Below, in pieces: positions 1,677-10,241 of a stretch of DNA of 64,000 bases (positions are counted from its first letter, which is position 1; each line of letters starts with the position of its first letter). This stretch comes from Terriglobia bacterium. GTDB taxonomy: Bacteria > Acidobacteriota > Terriglobia > JAIQFV01. The stretch is from contig JAIQFV010000001.1 in assembly GCA_020073085.1 (NCBI GenBank), positions 186,001-250,000 on the forward strand, in the 5' to 3' direction. A model generated the notes under the pieces. The model was not told the DNA's origin, did not search any database, and saw only the letters and a list, made by a program, of their open reading frames with translations. The translations under genes and the position numbers were made by a program.

Positions 1677-1922
1677 CCGGGTGCCGCGGGCATCGCGCTT
1701 TTTGTGATGCCTGCGCTGTCGATAGGGTCGCCCCGCCGAGCTGCTCGAGAATGAACTGCCGGGTGCCGCGGGCATCGCGCTCTTTGCGATGCCTGCGCTG
1801 TCGATAGGGTCGAACCGCCGAGCTGATCGAGAATGAACTGCCGGGTGCCGCGGGCATCGCGCTCTTTGCGATGCCTGCGCTGTCTCTAGGGTCGAACCGC
1901 CGAGCTGATCGAGAATGAACTG
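1677..1922. repeat. Three tandem 82-bp repeats, each with a hairpin
   Basis: Copies begin at 1677, 1759 and 1841, an exact 82-bp period, with few differences between copies. Each contains an 11-bp imperfect inverted repeat, GCGGGCATCGC and GCGATGCCTGC, around a 7-base loop. The array sits about 50 bp upstream of recJ, in its likely leader. It is not CRISPR: there are no variable spacers. It resembles tandem extragenic palindromic elements. 82 is not a multiple of three, so any reading through it shifts frame at each unit. Confidence 0.85.
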
Positions 1923-2086
1923 CCCAAGAATGCCGCAGCCGCCCAGGAGAACCATCAACGCACCTTTATCCGACTCCACCTCTCTCCAGAAATCAACTGT
2001 CACCTCTCACCTGAATTCACTTTGTCGTCATCCCGGAAAAAATTGAAATCGGAAGCAAGCGTGAGCGTCACTTTGTGAAATTTTTC

Positions 2087-2114
2087 TTGACACCCCCCCC
2101 CCCCTCTCTATGTT
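2087..2114 (+). promoter_or_regulatory. Promoter-like element with a C12 tract as spacer
   Basis: A perfect TTGACA at 2087-2092 is followed by twelve consecutive C residues (2093-2104), then TCTC, then TATGTT at 2109-2114. The spacing is 16 bases, close to the sigma-70 optimum of 17. The large exported protein gene starts at 2225 with GGAGGAGG at 2212-2219, leaving a leader of about 100 bases. Homopolymer tracts placed between -35 and -10 are known phase-variation switches (for example Neisseria porA and Bordetella fim promoters). The elements are seen; switching is inferred. Confidence 0.55.
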
Positions 2115-2224
2115 ATCGATTAAAGCGCTCGTGTTTTCCCCCTCGTCACCACGAGCGACCCCAGGTTCAGATTTAGGACGTTGTTCCTTTCATTCCTTTT
2201 CCTCTTTCCCCGGAGGAGGCTCTT

Positions 2225-5200
2225 ATGTCAGCACCGGCACCTCGAATCATTTGGACCCGGCAGTGCTCTGTCATCTTGGGCCGCAATGGCGCATCCGAGA
2301 ATCATGAACCACAGCATGTCGAGACTCGAGACTGTCCGCCCTGGATTTCTGTAAATGAGAATTCATCAGAGAGTGATTCCTTCGCTGGAGATTCGCCTGG
2401 CGCCGGAAGAACGACATGGAGACCAGACCTCATTTCTCTTCTCATGCTTTGCCTTCTCAGTCTGCTGCTCGCCTCTCCGCTTCAGATGAATGCGGCAGGT
2501 CCCAATCCCACTTCACTGTCGGCGAGTCCGAACAGCATCACCATGCCCGGCAGCGTCAGGTTCTGTGCAGGCGGTGGAGCCAACATGACGGTCGATCTGA
2601 AGTACTACTGGGACGGCGTCTTGTATGAAACCGACTACGGGGTGACCTTTGGATCGGATGGCTGTGTTGACAATTGGTACGACAGCGACTCCTTTGCCGG
2701 CAATTATACTTTTAGATGGATTCGCAATTCTCTCAACGGTCCGAGCGGCGCCTGGGCCAACGTCTCCACCCCTTTGACCTTGTACCCCCAACCCTCTCCA
2801 CCCACCATCTCCTATTTCTATGCCGACCAAAGCACCATCAACATCCATCAATGCACGATTGTGCGTTGGAGTTCGGAGAATGCTACGTCGGTTGACCTAA
2901 GTGGCGAGGACGTACCACTCGAATACTCCACACAAGAGTGTCCTCTCTCCACTGCTCAATATGTGCTCACCGCGCACAACGAATCAGGTCAGACCGCAAG
3001 GGCTTTTTACACCATACACGTCAACACCCAAGTGAACGACGCCGTTTATGTCGATCAGACCTCGCTGCCTGCCATGGAGGTCGGACGAACCTATTCTGTG
3101 TATGTGACCATGAGAAACACAGGAACGACCACCTGGACTGAGGGTCAACTCTTTCGATTAGGCTCCAGGAACCCATCCAATAATACCACTTGGGGATTAA
3201 GTCGAGTCTCCCTGGCGCCAGGGGAAAGTGTTCCCCCAGGGGCCACCAAGACCTTCGCGTTTAATGTAGTAGCGCCGGCCAACCCCAATACATACTACTT
3301 TCAATGGCAAATGACCCGGGATGGGGTGGGATGGTCTGGAGCTCAGAGTCCCAGTACACCTGCGTCCGCAGTCTTACCGCCCACTTCGATGAACTTTAGT
3401 CCCACCCAGGGAAACGCCGGCAATGACATGTATACCCTCACGGTGGGGGGTGGCGCCAACATCAGCATCGGCTTCAAGTACGAATGGTCCGGCAATATCG
3501 GAAATGTCGTCACGGTGGACCCATGGGAGCATGCTTTGGACGGCTCCGGTCAGGCCAGAAACATCAAGGTCAATCACAATGATGCCCCGGGCACCTACTG
3601 GTATCGTGCAATTAAGATCGCTGGAGCGCCGGACTGGGTGAACTTTTCTTCACCCTACCCCTCCTTTACGATCTTGCCGCCAAAACCGTTTACCAATTCG
3701 CTTTCCATTACACCGGGTTCCATAAAGCCTCCTGCCAGTTACACCATGACCGCGCGGAACACAGGCGGCGCAAAAGTGGACACTCGTTTTATGCTGAACA
3801 ACGGCGGCCCTCTCTATGACACTGGTTTTCCGACCTTCAATCCGGCACTCAATAATCCTCCTGGTGAGCCGGCCCAGGTCACTGTTAATGCGGCCACCTG
3901 CACGACCTCGGGGGATTATCTTTTCACGGGATTACGGAATACCCTTCTCCCCACTTCTGACTGGTCAGACCAACCGCAGAACAACATCCGGCGCATTTTC
4001 GTCAGTTGTCCCGACGCGCCGGCTCTCGATCAGAATTCCCCGGTGGTGCCGAGTACCGTCGCGGCAGGCGCAAGCAATGCAATCACCATTAACGGAACAA
4101 GTCTCTGCGGTCCGGTGACAATCACCAGTGACAACCCGGGAATCACATTTTCGAATCCCACCTCGGCAGGAGACTATTCCGGAGGGTTTGTGACTGCCTC
4201 CATGCAGGTCGCTGCTGCTGTGGCGCCTGGGCCCTATCTTTTTACTGTCAGAACCCCCTGTGACCAAGTGTCGGGAACGATCTCCGTGGCGCCCCCCTCG
4301 CTCCCGATCATCGCCATTGCTGACACCCAGGGTTCACCCACTGACCTCACGGTCCAATATGGCTCCATAACCGTGACGCAGGAGTCTCCTCACAACCCCC
4401 AATCTTACGACGTCACATTAAAGAATGTGGGGGCACAACCCTTGGCCATCAGTTCCATCGGGCTGCAGCACCATGTGGAGCAGGGATGGAGTGACGGCGC
4501 GGGAGTGTATTCGATGCTGAACCTGCCCGCCCTCCCAGTCACTCTCGCTTATGGTCAGACTCTGACATTTTCTGTCCAGTTTGACCCTTCGTTCGATTTG
4601 CTCTTGTCAGCCCATGTCAACTCTTTGTTGTACTTCTCTGAAATTGTGGTGCAATCTAACGATCCGAATACCTCCACAAAGAAGGTGGGCCTTTTTGCCA
4701 CCGCCACCGCCAATGGAATTGGGGATGCCCCCAATGGACTCGTCCTCCGGGCAGATGGTGCAGATTTGCGGGGTATCTACGATCTCAATACCGGCCCGGA
4801 TAGCACGACCTACGAGCTTGTCCTGCTCGGGTTGCCCGTTGGCGACGGGATCAAGATCCCCTTCGCTGGCTCTCAGAATTTCAATGCGGACAACGTAGTA
4901 GTCACGGCCTCCGGGGAAGGTCAAATGTCCCTTCGAAACTTTGTGATGGCCCACGGCGGGTCGATCCTGGGAGTTTCCAACACCGGGGGAGACACTACCA
5001 TCCAATTCAAAATGGCGGTTCCTAAACTTCCTTTGAACACCTCGCAGGGGTCGATTTCATTCAGTTTTCAGACGTTTCTACCCGCTACCCTCACCGTTTA
5101 CGACTACACCGCGATGTGCGATGCGAATATCCTCGATTTGTTCAACAAACTTCAAGTCTGTGTGGTCCAGCAGTCCGGGGGTCTAAGCGGGTTTGATCTC

Positions 5201-7096
5201 AGCAATTTGATCATCAACGGGAAGTTCAACCCTACTGTCCTGAACGATTTACAACAGAAATCCGCGAGTATTACGAATTGCCTTGTAGCGAACCTCCCTC
5301 CACTTCATGCCATTCTGGACCTGTCGCGCCGTTTGGGGAATCTCTCGCCGGGACAGATTCCTGAAATTCTGACCGATGCCGGTGAGTTGATTCAGTTTCT
5401 TCCCGTGCCCGCCAGCGTCAAAAAGGCCATTACCATCGCCGCTCAAGTGGCTCCCCTGATTGAGACTCTCCTTAGCCACGTGAGCAAGGCCGATAAGATC
5501 ATTGCTCTGGCGAAAATTGGTGGGATCATCAACCATCGTCTTGCTCCTACTGAACCCGTCGTGATTCCAGTTATTTTCCTTTATCCCTGCATCGTCTATT
5601 CCGTTGACTCTTTTTCTATGGTTAATTATGAAGATTGGTTCTTGCCGGGAGATCCACGAGTGCGAATAGATGGGATCGAGGTCGAGTCCAATTGCGCCTT
5701 TGTCGGTACGGCAACCATTAGAATCCATAGCCTACTGATTGATATCGTCGGCATGGTTGCTGATCAACTTACCAGGGTGGTGAGAGATATTCCCGCCGCG
5801 GTGGCGCCGGGGGGCGCAGGTCTCGATTGCGACCCAGTGACCTTTCAATGTAGAGGTCAGGAATTCTTGGAAGTCACGAATTCCCTCAAAGCACTGCAAA
5901 TCTCACCGACCACGTTATCATTTACGGCGCCCTACGGGGGCCGATCGGGGGCGAGCAGTTTTGATGTCACAAACACTGCCTTGCTCTGTCCACGACCCAG
6001 TCCCGACAGCCTCACGTACCAAATACCCGTAGGAAACGCCTGCGGGATTCCATTTTTTCCTCTTCAGCAGATGACCCATCACCAATGCGATGGGAGTGGC
6101 GATGAAACTCTTACCTGTCCATCATTGGGCTTGAGCTCAGTTGCCACTAATGGTCTTGCTGCCGGGGATTCATTGAATTTCAGTCATGTGTTTGATTTGA
6201 CGGATATGACCCTACTCGGTGGTCGTCCAATCCAGACGATCAACGAAAAGGTTGTTTTCCCAGGATTTGGCTGTGTGAATTTGGTGGGGAATGTGCAAAC
6301 ACCTCAAATCTCGCAAGATAAAGCGCTCTGGTATTTTGGGAGGGGCAATCAGCCACCCTTGGGATTTACCCTCGGAGCAACAAGTGCGACACTAACTGCC
6401 AATGGCGTGAACACAGGGACATTCGTATGGACAATCATCAATGGGACAGATAAGTTGACCCTTGAGAACAACTCGACGACAATTACAAAGACCAATGCAA
6501 ACACGCTCGGAATCAGCAGCACGTCCTTCAGCACAAAGGCAAACGATGTGACGGTTCAACTGAATTATACACCTCCAGGGGCGACGCAGCCGATTACATT
6601 TTCTTGGAGTCTCAGCATTGACTCGCCTTACAAGTTGGTCCCCAATCTGCTGCCCGGGACTCCATACCCAGAAGATCTTGGTATCAGTGGAAGTTGTGGA
6701 GAAGGGGCACCAACTGGCACTGACGGCTTTCAAACTATAATCCGTTATCAAATTCGTAGCTTCTTTAACAGTCTGATTACAGTAGCACAAGTGAATGAAT
6801 CATTCAGCGACTTTAAAGATATTTACATCGGGAACAATTGGGGAATTCCTCCCCAAACTCAGTTTACGACGACTGATGGGACGGTTGGCGATTACATTTG
6901 TATAGGGAGCCCCGGCTTCACTCCTACACCGCTGCCTCCCCAGTCGCCATTGTCGGATGTCCAAATTGATCAATGGACGCAAGCGTGGTTCGTGGGAAGT
7001 TTAGCTGAATCAGGCGGCGTTTTGGTCCAGACTAACACACTGGTTCGATATCAAGATCACGCGAGACACACGAACATAAAGTCACCAGTCAGATAA
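2225..7096 (+). CDS. Very large exported multi-domain Ig-like protein
   Basis: 1623 residues, probably surface-exposed or secreted. A hydrophobic segment at about residues 69-85 looks like a signal peptide core or anchor, but about 68 residues precede it, which is unusual. A beta-sandwich-like unit (GGGANMTVDLKYYWDG) at about 110-190 recurs at about 390-485 (GGGANISIGFKYEWSG) and more weakly at about 490-595. Residues about 272-375 match the NBR1-type Ig-like domain (VYVTMRNTGTTTW, RLGS, WGLSRVSL, YYFQWQM). A choice-of-anchor/ASH-like domain follows near 715-810 (YDVTLKNVGAQPLAISSI). Around 1000-1120 it is predicted helical. No catalytic motif was recognised. The start has a strong GGAGGAGG site. 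It leads a four-gene AT-rich block. Adhesion or a structural role is a guess. Confidence 0.8.
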   Translation: MSAPAPRIIWTRQCSVILGRNGASENHEPQHVETRDCPPWISVNENSSESDSFAGDSPGAGRTTWRPDLISLLMLCLLSLLLASPLQMNAAGPNPTSLSASPNSITMPGSVRFCAGGGANMTVDLKYYWDGVLYETDYGVTFGSDGCVDNWYDSDSFAGNYTFRWIRNSLNGPSGAWANVSTPLTLYPQPSPPTISYFYADQSTINIHQCTIVRWSSENATSVDLSGEDVPLEYSTQECPLSTAQYVLTAHNESGQTARAFYTIHVNTQVNDAVYVDQTSLPAMEVGRTYSVYVTMRNTGTTTWTEGQLFRLGSRNPSNNTTWGLSRVSLAPGESVPPGATKTFAFNVVAPANPNTYYFQWQMTRDGVGWSGAQSPSTPASAVLPPTSMNFSPTQGNAGNDMYTLTVGGGANISIGFKYEWSGNIGNVVTVDPWEHALDGSGQARNIKVNHNDAPGTYWYRAIKIAGAPDWVNFSSPYPSFTILPPKPFTNSLSITPGSIKPPASYTMTARNTGGAKVDTRFMLNNGGPLYDTGFPTFNPALNNPPGEPAQVTVNAATCTTSGDYLFTGLRNTLLPTSDWSDQPQNNIRRIFVSCPDAPALDQNSPVVPSTVAAGASNAITINGTSLCGPVTITSDNPGITFSNPTSAGDYSGGFVTASMQVAAAVAPGPYLFTVRTPCDQVSGTISVAPPSLPIIAIADTQGSPTDLTVQYGSITVTQESPHNPQSYDVTLKNVGAQPLAISSIGLQHHVEQGWSDGAGVYSMLNLPALPVTLAYGQTLTFSVQFDPSFDLLLSAHVNSLLYFSEIVVQSNDPNTSTKKVGLFATATANGIGDAPNGLVLRADGADLRGIYDLNTGPDSTTYELVLLGLPVGDGIKIPFAGSQNFNADNVVVTASGEGQMSLRNFVMAHGGSILGVSNTGGDTTIQFKMAVPKLPLNTSQGSISFSFQTFLPATLTVYDYTAMCDANILDLFNKLQVCVVQQSGGLSGFDLSNLIINGKFNPTVLNDLQQKSASITNCLVANLPPLHAILDLSRRLGNLSPGQIPEILTDAGELIQFLPVPASVKKAITIAAQVAPLIETLLSHVSKADKIIALAKIGGIINHRLAPTEPVVIPVIFLYPCIVYSVDSFSMVNYEDWFLPGDPRVRIDGIEVESNCAFVGTATIRIHSLLIDIVGMVADQLTRVVRDIPAAVAPGGAGLDCDPVTFQCRGQEFLEVTNSLKALQISPTTLSFTAPYGGRSGASSFDVTNTALLCPRPSPDSLTYQIPVGNACGIPFFPLQQMTHHQCDGSGDETLTCPSLGLSSVATNGLAAGDSLNFSHVFDLTDMTLLGGRPIQTINEKVVFPGFGCVNLVGNVQTPQISQDKALWYFGRGNQPPLGFTLGATSATLTANGVNTGTFVWTIINGTDKLTLENNSTTITKTNANTLGISSTSFSTKANDVTVQLNYTPPGATQPITFSWSLSIDSPYKLVPNLLPGTPYPEDLGISGSCGEGAPTGTDGFQTIIRYQIRSFFNSLITVAQVNESFSDFKDIYIGNNWGIPPQTQFTTTDGTVGDYICIGSPGFTPTPLPPQSPLSDVQIDQWTQAWFVGSLAESGGVLVQTNTLVRYQDHARHTNIKSPVR

Positions 7097-7113
7097 TTAT
7101 AGAGGAGTCAACT

Positions 7114-8148
7114 GTGAAGCTCGTGTTATGCATCTTAATCATTTTCGTTCTTTCCATCCCTACAATCACTGAGATTGGTCCAACTCCAGGCAGCCAACTC
7201 GTCAGGCCAGTATTTGAAAAGGCAGATGTCGTCTGTAATTGCTTTGTAAGGTCTCTTTCGCCTGCAAACACACAACCTTCAATCGTCAAAGGGAACTGCC
7301 CAGGCCCAGCTCGAATGAGCGCAGACATTGTTGTGCGAGATTGGTATAAGACAAGCCAATACAGTCTGGCATCACTAGTCGTCGAGTACGATCAGGATCA
7401 AGCGTGCTATTCGATAACCCAGCCAACGGTTTGGAAGGGAGAGACAGCCCTCATGTTTCTTAAGGCGACTCCATCTGCAACATATGCATGGGCTGATACT
7501 TTTCTGGCAGCGATTCCCTTTAAGTCATTACCTCCGCAATCAGGACAGTTAGGGCCAGGCAAGCTTCAGGCCGCGTTGATGTTTGTCGCAAATCAACAAA
7601 ATCGAGAAGATCAAATCCGTGCGTTGCGACTACTCCACGGATTTGATACTCTTACCCCAGATTCAGTATCAAGCATACTTCCGCTATCCGATTCCAAGGA
7701 TCCTGACGTCGCATTTCTAGCATTGGCTGTCTTGCTCACGACGAAGACACCTGAGAGCGTCGAGAGGTTAGTGAGATACCTGGACGCATATAAAGGCGAT
7801 CGTGGGCCACTGGCCCTGATCAACATCAATACAGACTTGGCCCAGATTCGAGATGTGCGTGCTCTATCACACCTCGAGTTGCTGTGTAGCTCAAGATTTG
7901 CGTTGATCAGGGACGGAGCGATGCGTGCACTGCGAGGAATTAAGAGTCCCCATAGCGTTCCCGTCTTGGTTCAACGACTGGATGACTCGGATAGCGATAT
8001 CAAATATCTCGCTGTGATTACACTTGCTGAGATTCTTGGCAAATACGAAGGCGATTATGCACCCAGTATGTATCTCTTCGACAAGAAGCCCAGTTTCTAC
8101 ACAAATTTATGGAAAACATGGTGGGCCAATGAGCGGCACACGCCATAG
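7114..8148 (+). CDS. Exported HEAT-repeat protein
   Basis: 344 residues from a GTG start with a GAGGAG site six bases upstream, 17 bases after the large protein gene, so probably co-transcribed. Residues 1-20 form a short signal peptide. Residues about 30-130 contain cysteines and a strand-rich pattern (ADVVCNCFVRSL, WKGETALMFL) loosely like NTR/TIMP-type folds; this is only a resemblance. Residues about 160-320 are helical pairs typical of HEAT/PBS-lyase repeats (for example SPHSVPVLVQRLDDSDSDIK), which usually mediate protein-protein contacts. The base composition is clearly more AT-rich than neighbouring housekeeping genes. No enzyme motif is visible. Confidence 0.75.
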   Translation: MKLVLCILIIFVLSIPTITEIGPTPGSQLVRPVFEKADVVCNCFVRSLSPANTQPSIVKGNCPGPARMSADIVVRDWYKTSQYSLASLVVEYDQDQACYSITQPTVWKGETALMFLKATPSATYAWADTFLAAIPFKSLPPQSGQLGPGKLQAALMFVANQQNREDQIRALRLLHGFDTLTPDSVSSILPLSDSKDPDVAFLALAVLLTTKTPESVERLVRYLDAYKGDRGPLALININTDLAQIRDVRALSHLELLCSSRFALIRDGAMRALRGIKSPHSVPVLVQRLDDSDSDIKYLAVITLAEILGKYEGDYAPSMYLFDKKPSFYTNLWKTWWANERHTP

Positions 8149-8446
8149 CGCTTATCGTGACATCATCCGCTGGCAGGAGTTGCAAGTGACCACAGAACGC
8201 GGATCTCCTTCAAGTCCAACTGTTTCCAACAGCCCGTTCGGGATATGCTCCCCTATCCCTCTTTCCGAACCCGGTCAAACTTTCCCGCAAAACATAGCCA
8301 TAATCAGACCTGACGGCAAATCCTATCCTGTGCGAACCTGCATGTGGACAGTCACGGGGCCTGGCGTGGAGAGCTTTGGACACGGGTCGATCAAAAACAA
8401 CATTACAAGTCCGGGCAGGGGCTCCGATGTCTTGGCTTCGAGGTAA
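8129..8446 (+). CDS. Small hypothetical protein
   Basis: 105 codons from ATG at 8129, overlapping the end of the HEAT-repeat gene by 20 bases and ending three bases before the next start. That spacing, and the same strand, fit translational coupling in one operon. The product has no signal peptide, no transmembrane segment and no motif I recognise; it is rich in Pro, Ser and Gly, with a central PDGKSYPVRTCMWTVTGPG stretch. The ribosome binding site is weak (GGTGG). It may be real or a chance open frame; the tight packing is the main support. Confidence 0.4.
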   Translation: MSGTRHSAYRDIIRWQELQVTTERGSPSSPTVSNSPFGICSPIPLSEPGQTFPQNIAIIRPDGKSYPVRTCMWTVTGPGVESFGHGSIKNNITSPGRGSDVLASR

Positions 8447-8449
8447 ACT

Positions 8450-8887
8450 ATGAAAAGGATGTTATTCACAATCCTGAGCTTTGTCATGTTTTCCATCGTT
8501 ATCCATGCTCAGTCATCAACCGCCCCAGGAGAGATGGAGACTCCAGAACGAGTGATCAGACGAGAGATAGAGTCCGGTCTTCTCTATGGGCATGACCACA
8601 AGGTTCTCGGAGGCATGTGCGATGCCGCTGCAGTGATTGTAACGAAGATTCTGGGAGAAAAGAATCTTACAGTGAGCGAGATCGATGGGGTACTCGTGGT
8701 TTTCTCCGCGGCTTTTGCAGGTCCTTCTGAGATTGTGTCTGATCGGGAACCGAGAACAACTTTGTTCGTTCTGAAGTACCTGGAACTCTCCATCAAGGAT
8801 GCACCATTGAAGAAAAGGATCGAGCATACAAGGATCCATACAAAGGAGCAGTATGCAAAGTGGGTGAAAGACCTTCCCAGAAGGTAA
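8450..8887 (+). CDS. Small exported hypothetical protein
   Basis: 145 residues from ATG at 8450 with a GAGGT site five bases upstream. Residues 1-21 (MKRMLFTILSFVMFSIVIHA) are a clear signal peptide ending in an AxA-like site before QSS. The mature part is charged and mostly helical with an IREIES-like and a KYLELSIKDAPLKKR segment; no family was recognised. It is the last gene of the AT-rich block that begins with the large exported protein. About 250 bases without a gene follow, holding only weak inverted repeats. Confidence 0.65.
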   Translation: MKRMLFTILSFVMFSIVIHAQSSTAPGEMETPERVIRREIESGLLYGHDHKVLGGMCDAAAVIVTKILGEKNLTVSEIDGVLVVFSAAFAGPSEIVSDREPRTTLFVLKYLELSIKDAPLKKRIEHTRIHTKEQYAKWVKDLPRR

Positions 8888-9137
8888 GCATTGCCGTTGT
8901 GGCACACACACCGCATTCATTGCGAAACGGGGGCTTGCTACAAGAGAAGAGTCAGACGGAGAAACCGAAGAACCTAACTGCGAGTTGGTTCTCTGCGATA
9001 AGCATGAGTTGAAACGCAATTCTCATGGGGCTTAAGACTCGCGCCACAGGAATTGGCTGGGCAATTGCTAATGACTCGAAAGGGGTACTCATCGAAGCGA
9101 AGGAAATCCGGAAAATGACTGCATCACGAGGTGGCAC

Positions 9138-10241
9138 ATGAGAAGAAAGAATGGCTCTGCAAAGATTATAAGAGTTAGTGGTGATTTCGTTAGCCTCATT
9201 ATCCTGTTGTTGTCTGTCTCCACGACCTGTTGGGCGCAGGGCAATTCTGCCGCGGCACACGCGGATCGAGCGGGCATGGCGCATGGCGACGGCTGGCAGA
9301 AGGGGGCCGTCAAGACCTGGGTGGCCCAGGGAACGGTGACCATTTATCGTCAGTCGGCAGAATCGTCCGCGGCGACCAGCGACACTCTGCAATCCCAACA
9401 GACGTTTCCGGTGACCGTGATTCACCAGGCTGATCCTGCGGGAGGCGGCTCCAAGGGCGATAAGCTCCAACGATTCGTTTTCAAGGCGCCCGACGCCTCC
9501 CCAGACGGGTCAACAGCACTGCAATCCTCTTTTGTCAATCCTCGCTCCCCTGAAAGGATCCTCACACGCGAAGGAACCGATGGCAACGACCAGTGGCACT
9601 CGGCTGGCCCCCTCAGCACGAAGGCGGCAGGCCATGTCCAGCGCTTCATTGAATCCCAAACCGAGCGCTCCCTGGAGGCGTTGTTCAACTTCCGCAAGCA
9701 TGGCAAGAACCTCGCAGACCTCACCGACAGGTTTGCTGCACAGGGGCAAGGGGCGAACGGAGCTGCCGATAATGGCAACGACAATGGAAACGGGAATGCC
9801 AATGGACATCGTGATCGAGCCCATCCCACTCCAGCCTTTGAGGCCGCCAGGAACAGGAAGGTCATTGAAGTCGCCGATTCATCCGGAAACGGGCATGGTC
9901 CCCAAGGCGGCGCGCCGGGGCAATCGACGCGCTATTACATTGACGACGCCACTTCGCTGGTCACGCGCATGGAATTTGATTACGACACCGCGACCGATCC
10001 GTTTTCAAATCAACCGGTCGCGCTCACCGAGGTCTATGAGTTTTCGGACTACCGTGACGTTCCCCTCGCGACCCCCGACCCGTTTTCAGCAAAGCCGACG
10101 GCCAAGGCAGCAGATCCCGGCGCGACCGTCAAATTCCCGTTCCGGATCGATCGCTACATCGCCGGCCAGTTGGCCGAGTCGCTCGTCTTCACGCGCGTCG
10201 CCCTCGGCCGCACCCTGGCGCCGGAGAATTTCCGGAAATAA
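9138..10241 (+). CDS. Exported protein with LolA-like C-terminal region
   Basis: 367 residues from ATG with a GAGGTGGC site. A signal peptide spans about residues 1-34, ending CWAQG. The middle carries a low-complexity Asn/Gly linker (GNDNGNGNANG) near 205-220. The C-terminal part (RYYIDDATSLVTRMEFDY, then VYEFSDYRDV and FPFRIDRYIAGQL) has the strand pattern seen in LolA/LolB-fold outer-membrane lipoprotein-sorting relatives common in Acidobacteria. That fold is inferred from sequence rhythm, not a signature. It is probably periplasmic. There is no obvious operon partner; the downstream peptidase is convergent. Confidence 0.6.
   Translation: MRRKNGSAKIIRVSGDFVSLIILLLSVSTTCWAQGNSAAAHADRAGMAHGDGWQKGAVKTWVAQGTVTIYRQSAESSAATSDTLQSQQTFPVTVIHQADPAGGGSKGDKLQRFVFKAPDASPDGSTALQSSFVNPRSPERILTREGTDGNDQWHSAGPLSTKAAGHVQRFIESQTERSLEALFNFRKHGKNLADLTDRFAAQGQGANGAADNGNDNGNGNANGHRDRAHPTPAFEAARNRKVIEVADSSGNGHGPQGGAPGQSTRYYIDDATSLVTRMEFDYDTATDPFSNQPVALTEVYEFSDYRDVPLATPDPFSAKPTAKAADPGATVKFPFRIDRYIAGQLAESLVFTRVALGRTLAPENFRK

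Follow-up and report, generated by a model that had tools for sequence, protein, structure and literature searches.

We propose that the sequence TTGACA-C12-TATGTT, found in a 64-kb stretch of DNA (the window) upstream of a gene for a 1623-aa exported Ig-like protein, is probably an ordinary sigma70-type promoter. Its C12 tract would stand at the far end of a preference for C-runs seen throughout the class, with selection appearing to hold the spacing of the two hexamers and not the purity of the tract. This reading draws on the sequence itself, the homologous promoters, the constant spacing in two copies and a class-wide C-run bias, all of which are shown. Overall, the promoter is very probably real, with an unusual but explicable spacer, and phase variation is possible but unsupported.

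Promoter, leader and genes served

Direct reading and a consensus scan revealed exactly what the preliminary description had claimed, twelve C residues between TTGACA and TATGTT in a spacer of 16 nt. The arrangement has the form of a sigma70-type promoter (two hexamers separated by 16-18 nt, ahead of a gene) and lies 110 nt before the ATG (2225) of the 1623-aa ORF. The site scored 10 of 12 consensus matches. Over 10 kb, equal-scoring matches occurred 5 times versus 6.0 in shuffled sequences, a frequency at the shuffled level, so the score alone is no proof and the case for a promoter is made by location and homology. We consider the promoter very probably real, as judged from sequence, because it is common to the paralogue at G000:C2 and because the leader hairpin starts 6-12 nt past the -10 element in each of four copies (window, C2, C56 and C10). 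The position of this hairpin, followed by GACCCC(A/T)GGT, also lends support to the start region assigned here and is consistent with the start 6-9 nt past the -10 that a sigma70-type promoter would have. Location and the homologous C2 promoter likewise support the claim that the large exported Ig-like protein is expressed from a sigma70-type promoter whose spacer contains C12, and we infer that transcription proceeds from this pair of hexamers. The features are listed in the table.

Features of the promoter region and the genes downstream (window coordinates)
Feature	Position	Strand	Basis
Promoter-leader cassette	2040..2740	+	Sliding identity with the C2 copy of about 80-94%, dropping to about 45-65% on either side
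-35 element TTGACA	2087..2092	+	Consensus scan; TTGAC conserved in the promoters of paralogues C2, C13 and C56 and of the G002 homologue
16-nt spacer, C12 (2093-2104) and TCTC (2105-2108)	2093..2108	+	Direct reading; C2 paralogue CCCCCACCCCCCGCTC also 16 nt
-10 element TATGTT	2109..2114	+	Consensus scan; about 30 nt of surrounding sequence shared unchanged with the C2 paralogue; leader hairpin 12 nt downstream
Hairpin GCTCGTG (2127-2133)/CACGAGC (2150-2156), C5-containing loop, then conserved GACCCC(A/T)GGT	2127..2156	+	Four genome copies
Strong Shine-Dalgarno GGAGGAGG (2212-2219) and possible sequestering arm TCCTC (2200-2204)	2200..2219	+	Direct reading; fold predicted in window, C2 and C56
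ORF of the 1623-aa exported Ig-like protein	2225..7096	+	Real ORF; hydrophobic segment at about residues 70-90; two paralogues of the N-terminal part
HEAT-repeat exported protein, probable second operon gene	7114..8148	+	17-nt gap after the Ig-like ORF

The hydrophobic segment of the 1623-aa protein resembles that of exported proteins whose leader is long, and a comparison against Pfam placed N_BRCA1_IG just below the cut-off. The operon described earlier is plausible, given the short gap before the HEAT-repeat gene. A protein search of the genome_contigs database returned an Ig domain in Duganella as its sole match, which is irrelevant to the promoter.

Upstream, recJ lies on the opposite strand. 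The same-genus genome G001 is without the Ig-like gene and has recJ close to the genes found from about 9434 onward in the window. The window from about 1731 to 9433 is an accessory block; in G001 an IS200-like (Y1_Tnp) transposase gene alone parts recJ from the downstream genes. In addition, an 82-nt unit is repeated three times in tandem at window positions 1677-1922; it contains GGGTGCCGCGGGCATCGCGC...GCGATGCCTGCGC, a dispersed REP-like palindrome with more than 40 matches genome-wide and a few in the same-genus genome. The recJ/transposase region of G001 also carries a related repeat.

Spacer length and tract purity in homologous promoters

The only close relative of the promoter is that of the C2 paralogue (289373-291421), whose product is 60% identical to the Ig-like protein over residues 1-688 and whose promoter block is 88% identical. 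The contrast between a block of about 700 bp and its much less similar flanks (see the table) suggests that the promoter-leader cassette was recently copied or gene-converted between the window and C2. The C2 promoter reads TTGACG-CCCCCACCCCCCGCTC-TATGTT, with a spacer of 16 nt in which the C-run is interrupted. The two spacers differ by two point substitutions with zero change in length, and indels of 11, 8 and 1 nt are found within about 130 nt. A tract that slips freely would probably vary in length, and the two spacers are equally long, so the simplest reading, drawn from a single comparison with one close copy, is that the spacing is maintained whereas the purity of the tract is not.

The more distant relatives keep TTGAC and lack the C-tract, reading TTGACT TCCACTTTTC... 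in C13, TTGACA CTGGAAACC... at C56, a leader relative, and TTGACA TGGTTGC... in the homologue of G002, a genome of the same family. The homopolymer is thus not retained across the homologous promoters, being interrupted in C2 and absent in C13, C56 and G002. With spacing held and purity not, the tract would be a tolerated by-product of a C-rich spacer composition, and we infer from these alignments that selection acts on spacer length.

The gene of the C2 paralogue (L082, G000:C2:284000-296000) shares its Ig-like N-terminal half with the window gene, but its C-terminal half differs and bears the metalloprotease-like motif HEIGH. Both genes encode modular exported proteins with one common promoter-leader cassette. 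A second Ig-like paralogue (L083, G000:C13) is broken by an in-frame TAG stop.

C-runs in the genome and across the class

The occurrence of long tracts was counted by pattern searches of the genome (5.79 Mb, 68 contigs) and compared with Markov models (orders 1-5) fitted to the window sequence. A C12 run is expected 0.003-0.045 times per 64-kb window and is thus rare at that scale. Genome-wide, however, tracts of at least 12 were observed twice (a non-promoter C14 run at G000:C2:99086 and the C12 of the window) versus 0.3-4.1 expected. C12 is notable for one window and ordinary for the whole genome. Likewise, 30 distinct C/G runs of at least 9 were counted in the places read versus about 28-151 expected, the longest being 14, 12 (window) and 11, so that long C/G tracts are not over-represented in the genome. 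Eighteen of these 30 runs lie inside ORFs of at least 100 aa, and no contingency pattern was seen among the other long C-tracts of the genome. The only other TTGACA-C9 of the genome was rejected as a promoter, since it falls just within an ORF that by eye looks like urocanase.

A different picture emerged from promoter-like sites. In a survey of 200 genomes of the class, with reversed patterns as controls, TTGACN followed at once by C6 and by TANNNT 16-18 nt away gave 55 matches versus 4 reversed; the survey includes related, hence non-independent, genomes, yet the contrast is large. Replacing C6 with G6 gave 7 matches (9 reversed) and with T6 gave 16 (13 reversed). A C6 in mid-spacer gave 22 (5 reversed), two of them being the window and its paralogue. 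The examples read in the own genome and G001 precede genes that by eye look like gcvT, hrcA and nfo, and those before the gcvT-like and hrcA-like genes form conserved pairs between the two genomes with unchanged spacing. In genus g9, all 7 genomes retain C6 at one promoter (TTGACACCCCCC...TGTGCTACTTT), with variation in the following six bases. C-runs past the -35 element are therefore usual at ordinary or housekeeping promoters and give no sign of a contingency gene.

The window promoter shares with these ordinary promoters a C-run directly after TTGACN and a distance of 16-18 nt to TANNNT, but its C12 well exceeds the C6-C7 that they usually carry. Only 5 of 299 genomes have TTGACA with C8 or more directly behind it. 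Both points, and the intragenic position of the other TTGACA-C9 of the own genome, count against our reading. Four class matches to TTGACA-C8/C9 were set aside as promoters, with no obvious -10 at the correct distance by eye. In the mechanism that we favour, the class would prefer C-runs immediately past the -35 hexamer, of which C12 is the extreme case, and selection would appear to hold the 16-nt spacing and not the purity of the tract. The C-rich strand may aid promoter function. Occasional slippage would probably yield weaker or stronger variants, and nothing demonstrates an evolved switch. The measurable bias of the class towards a C-run directly past the -35 is the more useful result, and it carries a warning that a poly-C promoter spacer in this class cannot on its own be taken as evidence for a contingency locus.

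Alternative readings and known systems

The preliminary description had taken the tract for a possible slippage switch of phase variation. In such a promoter C12 would slip to give spacers of 15, 16 or 17 nt, and would switch or grade the expression of the surface protein. The tract is a pure homopolymer of at least 9 residues wholly within the spacer, as in slippage of the opc/porA type, and the gene it would control encodes a large exported protein and lies in an accessory region that the same-genus genome lacks. A 16-nt spacer is one below the usual optimum, so the addition of one nucleotide could increase activity. Precedent is given by opc (opcA) of Neisseria meningitidis, in which, according to a statement in PMC3447861 citing Sarkari et al. 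1994, the length of a poly-C promoter tract governs expression, low with C11 and high with C12. Against this stand the interrupted tract of the C2 paralogue at equal spacer length, the relatives without the tract, the C-runs at housekeeping promoters and a genome not enriched in such tracts. We rank phase variation second, on account of the constant length and the interrupted tract of the paralogue, and regard it as unlikely. The C2 copy might descend from a variable ancestor and have become locked, which counts against our preferred reading; the fuller proposal that an opc-like switch for the giant Ig-like protein evolved from a class-wide C-rich spacer, with C2 as its locked counterpart, seems slightly less likely still. 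If slippage were shown, a group with no known case of promoter-spacer phase variation would gain one; a literature search for phase variation and homopolymers in Acidobacteria, to which the host appears to belong, found no relevant paper.

By analogy, the opc promoter is the nearest known system. As described in that source, about 11-12 C residues stand in a row in this promoter, which serves an outer-membrane protein gene, comparable to the C12 of the same size before an exported protein here. However, both length variation and change of expression are demonstrated for opc and would be predictions for the window promoter, which has a consensus -35 and a paralogue in which the tract is interrupted with spacing kept. 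The porA promoter of Neisseria also carries a homopolymer between the -35 and -10 elements, but it is a poly-G tract with documented strain-to-strain length variation, in contrast to the C-tract of the window. In Bordetella pertussis, the fim3 promoter depends on an activator and lacks a normal -35, and its tract lies upstream of the -10 element, in contrast to the window tract between two recognisable hexamers. The likeness to fim3 of B. pertussis is that of poly-C at the promoter of a surface structure, where, in the account given in PMC10172299, deletion of a single C accompanied a change of phenotype.

The remaining readings deny the tract any role of its own. Under neutral drift, a C-rich spacer would have lost its interruptions by point mutation, and its C-richness would be functionally meaningless. 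Two substitutions suffice to interconvert the window and C2 spacers, and 0.3-4 such tracts are expected per genome, but drift leaves the class-wide excess of C6 after the -35, over G6, T6 and mid-spacer C6, unaccounted for, making it improbable. We consider it very improbable that the C-tract is incidental to a 5'-leader in which the hairpin and a predicted stem sequestering the Shine-Dalgarno act as the relevant regulator of several exported-protein genes. Four copies of the hairpin with GACCCC(A/T)GGT occur at a similar distance past the -10 in the own genome, and a stem covering the Shine-Dalgarno is predicted in three of them. All (100%) of the alignment cells of the stem are paired in the four copies, but with only one compensatory change (G-C to A-U in C56), and covariation was not above shuffles (115/500). 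In addition, the copies may be mere duplicates, and hairpin models gave no convincing copies beyond the own genome, with E-values of 0.005-0.04 among the 151 genomes searched, for which chance suffices.

The leader hairpin is, as judged from these sequence searches, lineage-restricted, and positions 1600-2600 gave no Rfam match. Its copies are located at 2127-2166 of the window and, on the minus strand, at L072, L109 and L123, with a loop of the form CCCCC...GTC; a fifth, weaker match was found at C51. The copy at L109 (minus strand of G000:C56:8000-12000) stands ahead of an ORF of 95 aa, a gene for a small cysteine-rich exported peptide and one for a thioredoxin-like protein (CKWC), which possibly form a secreted-peptide operon.
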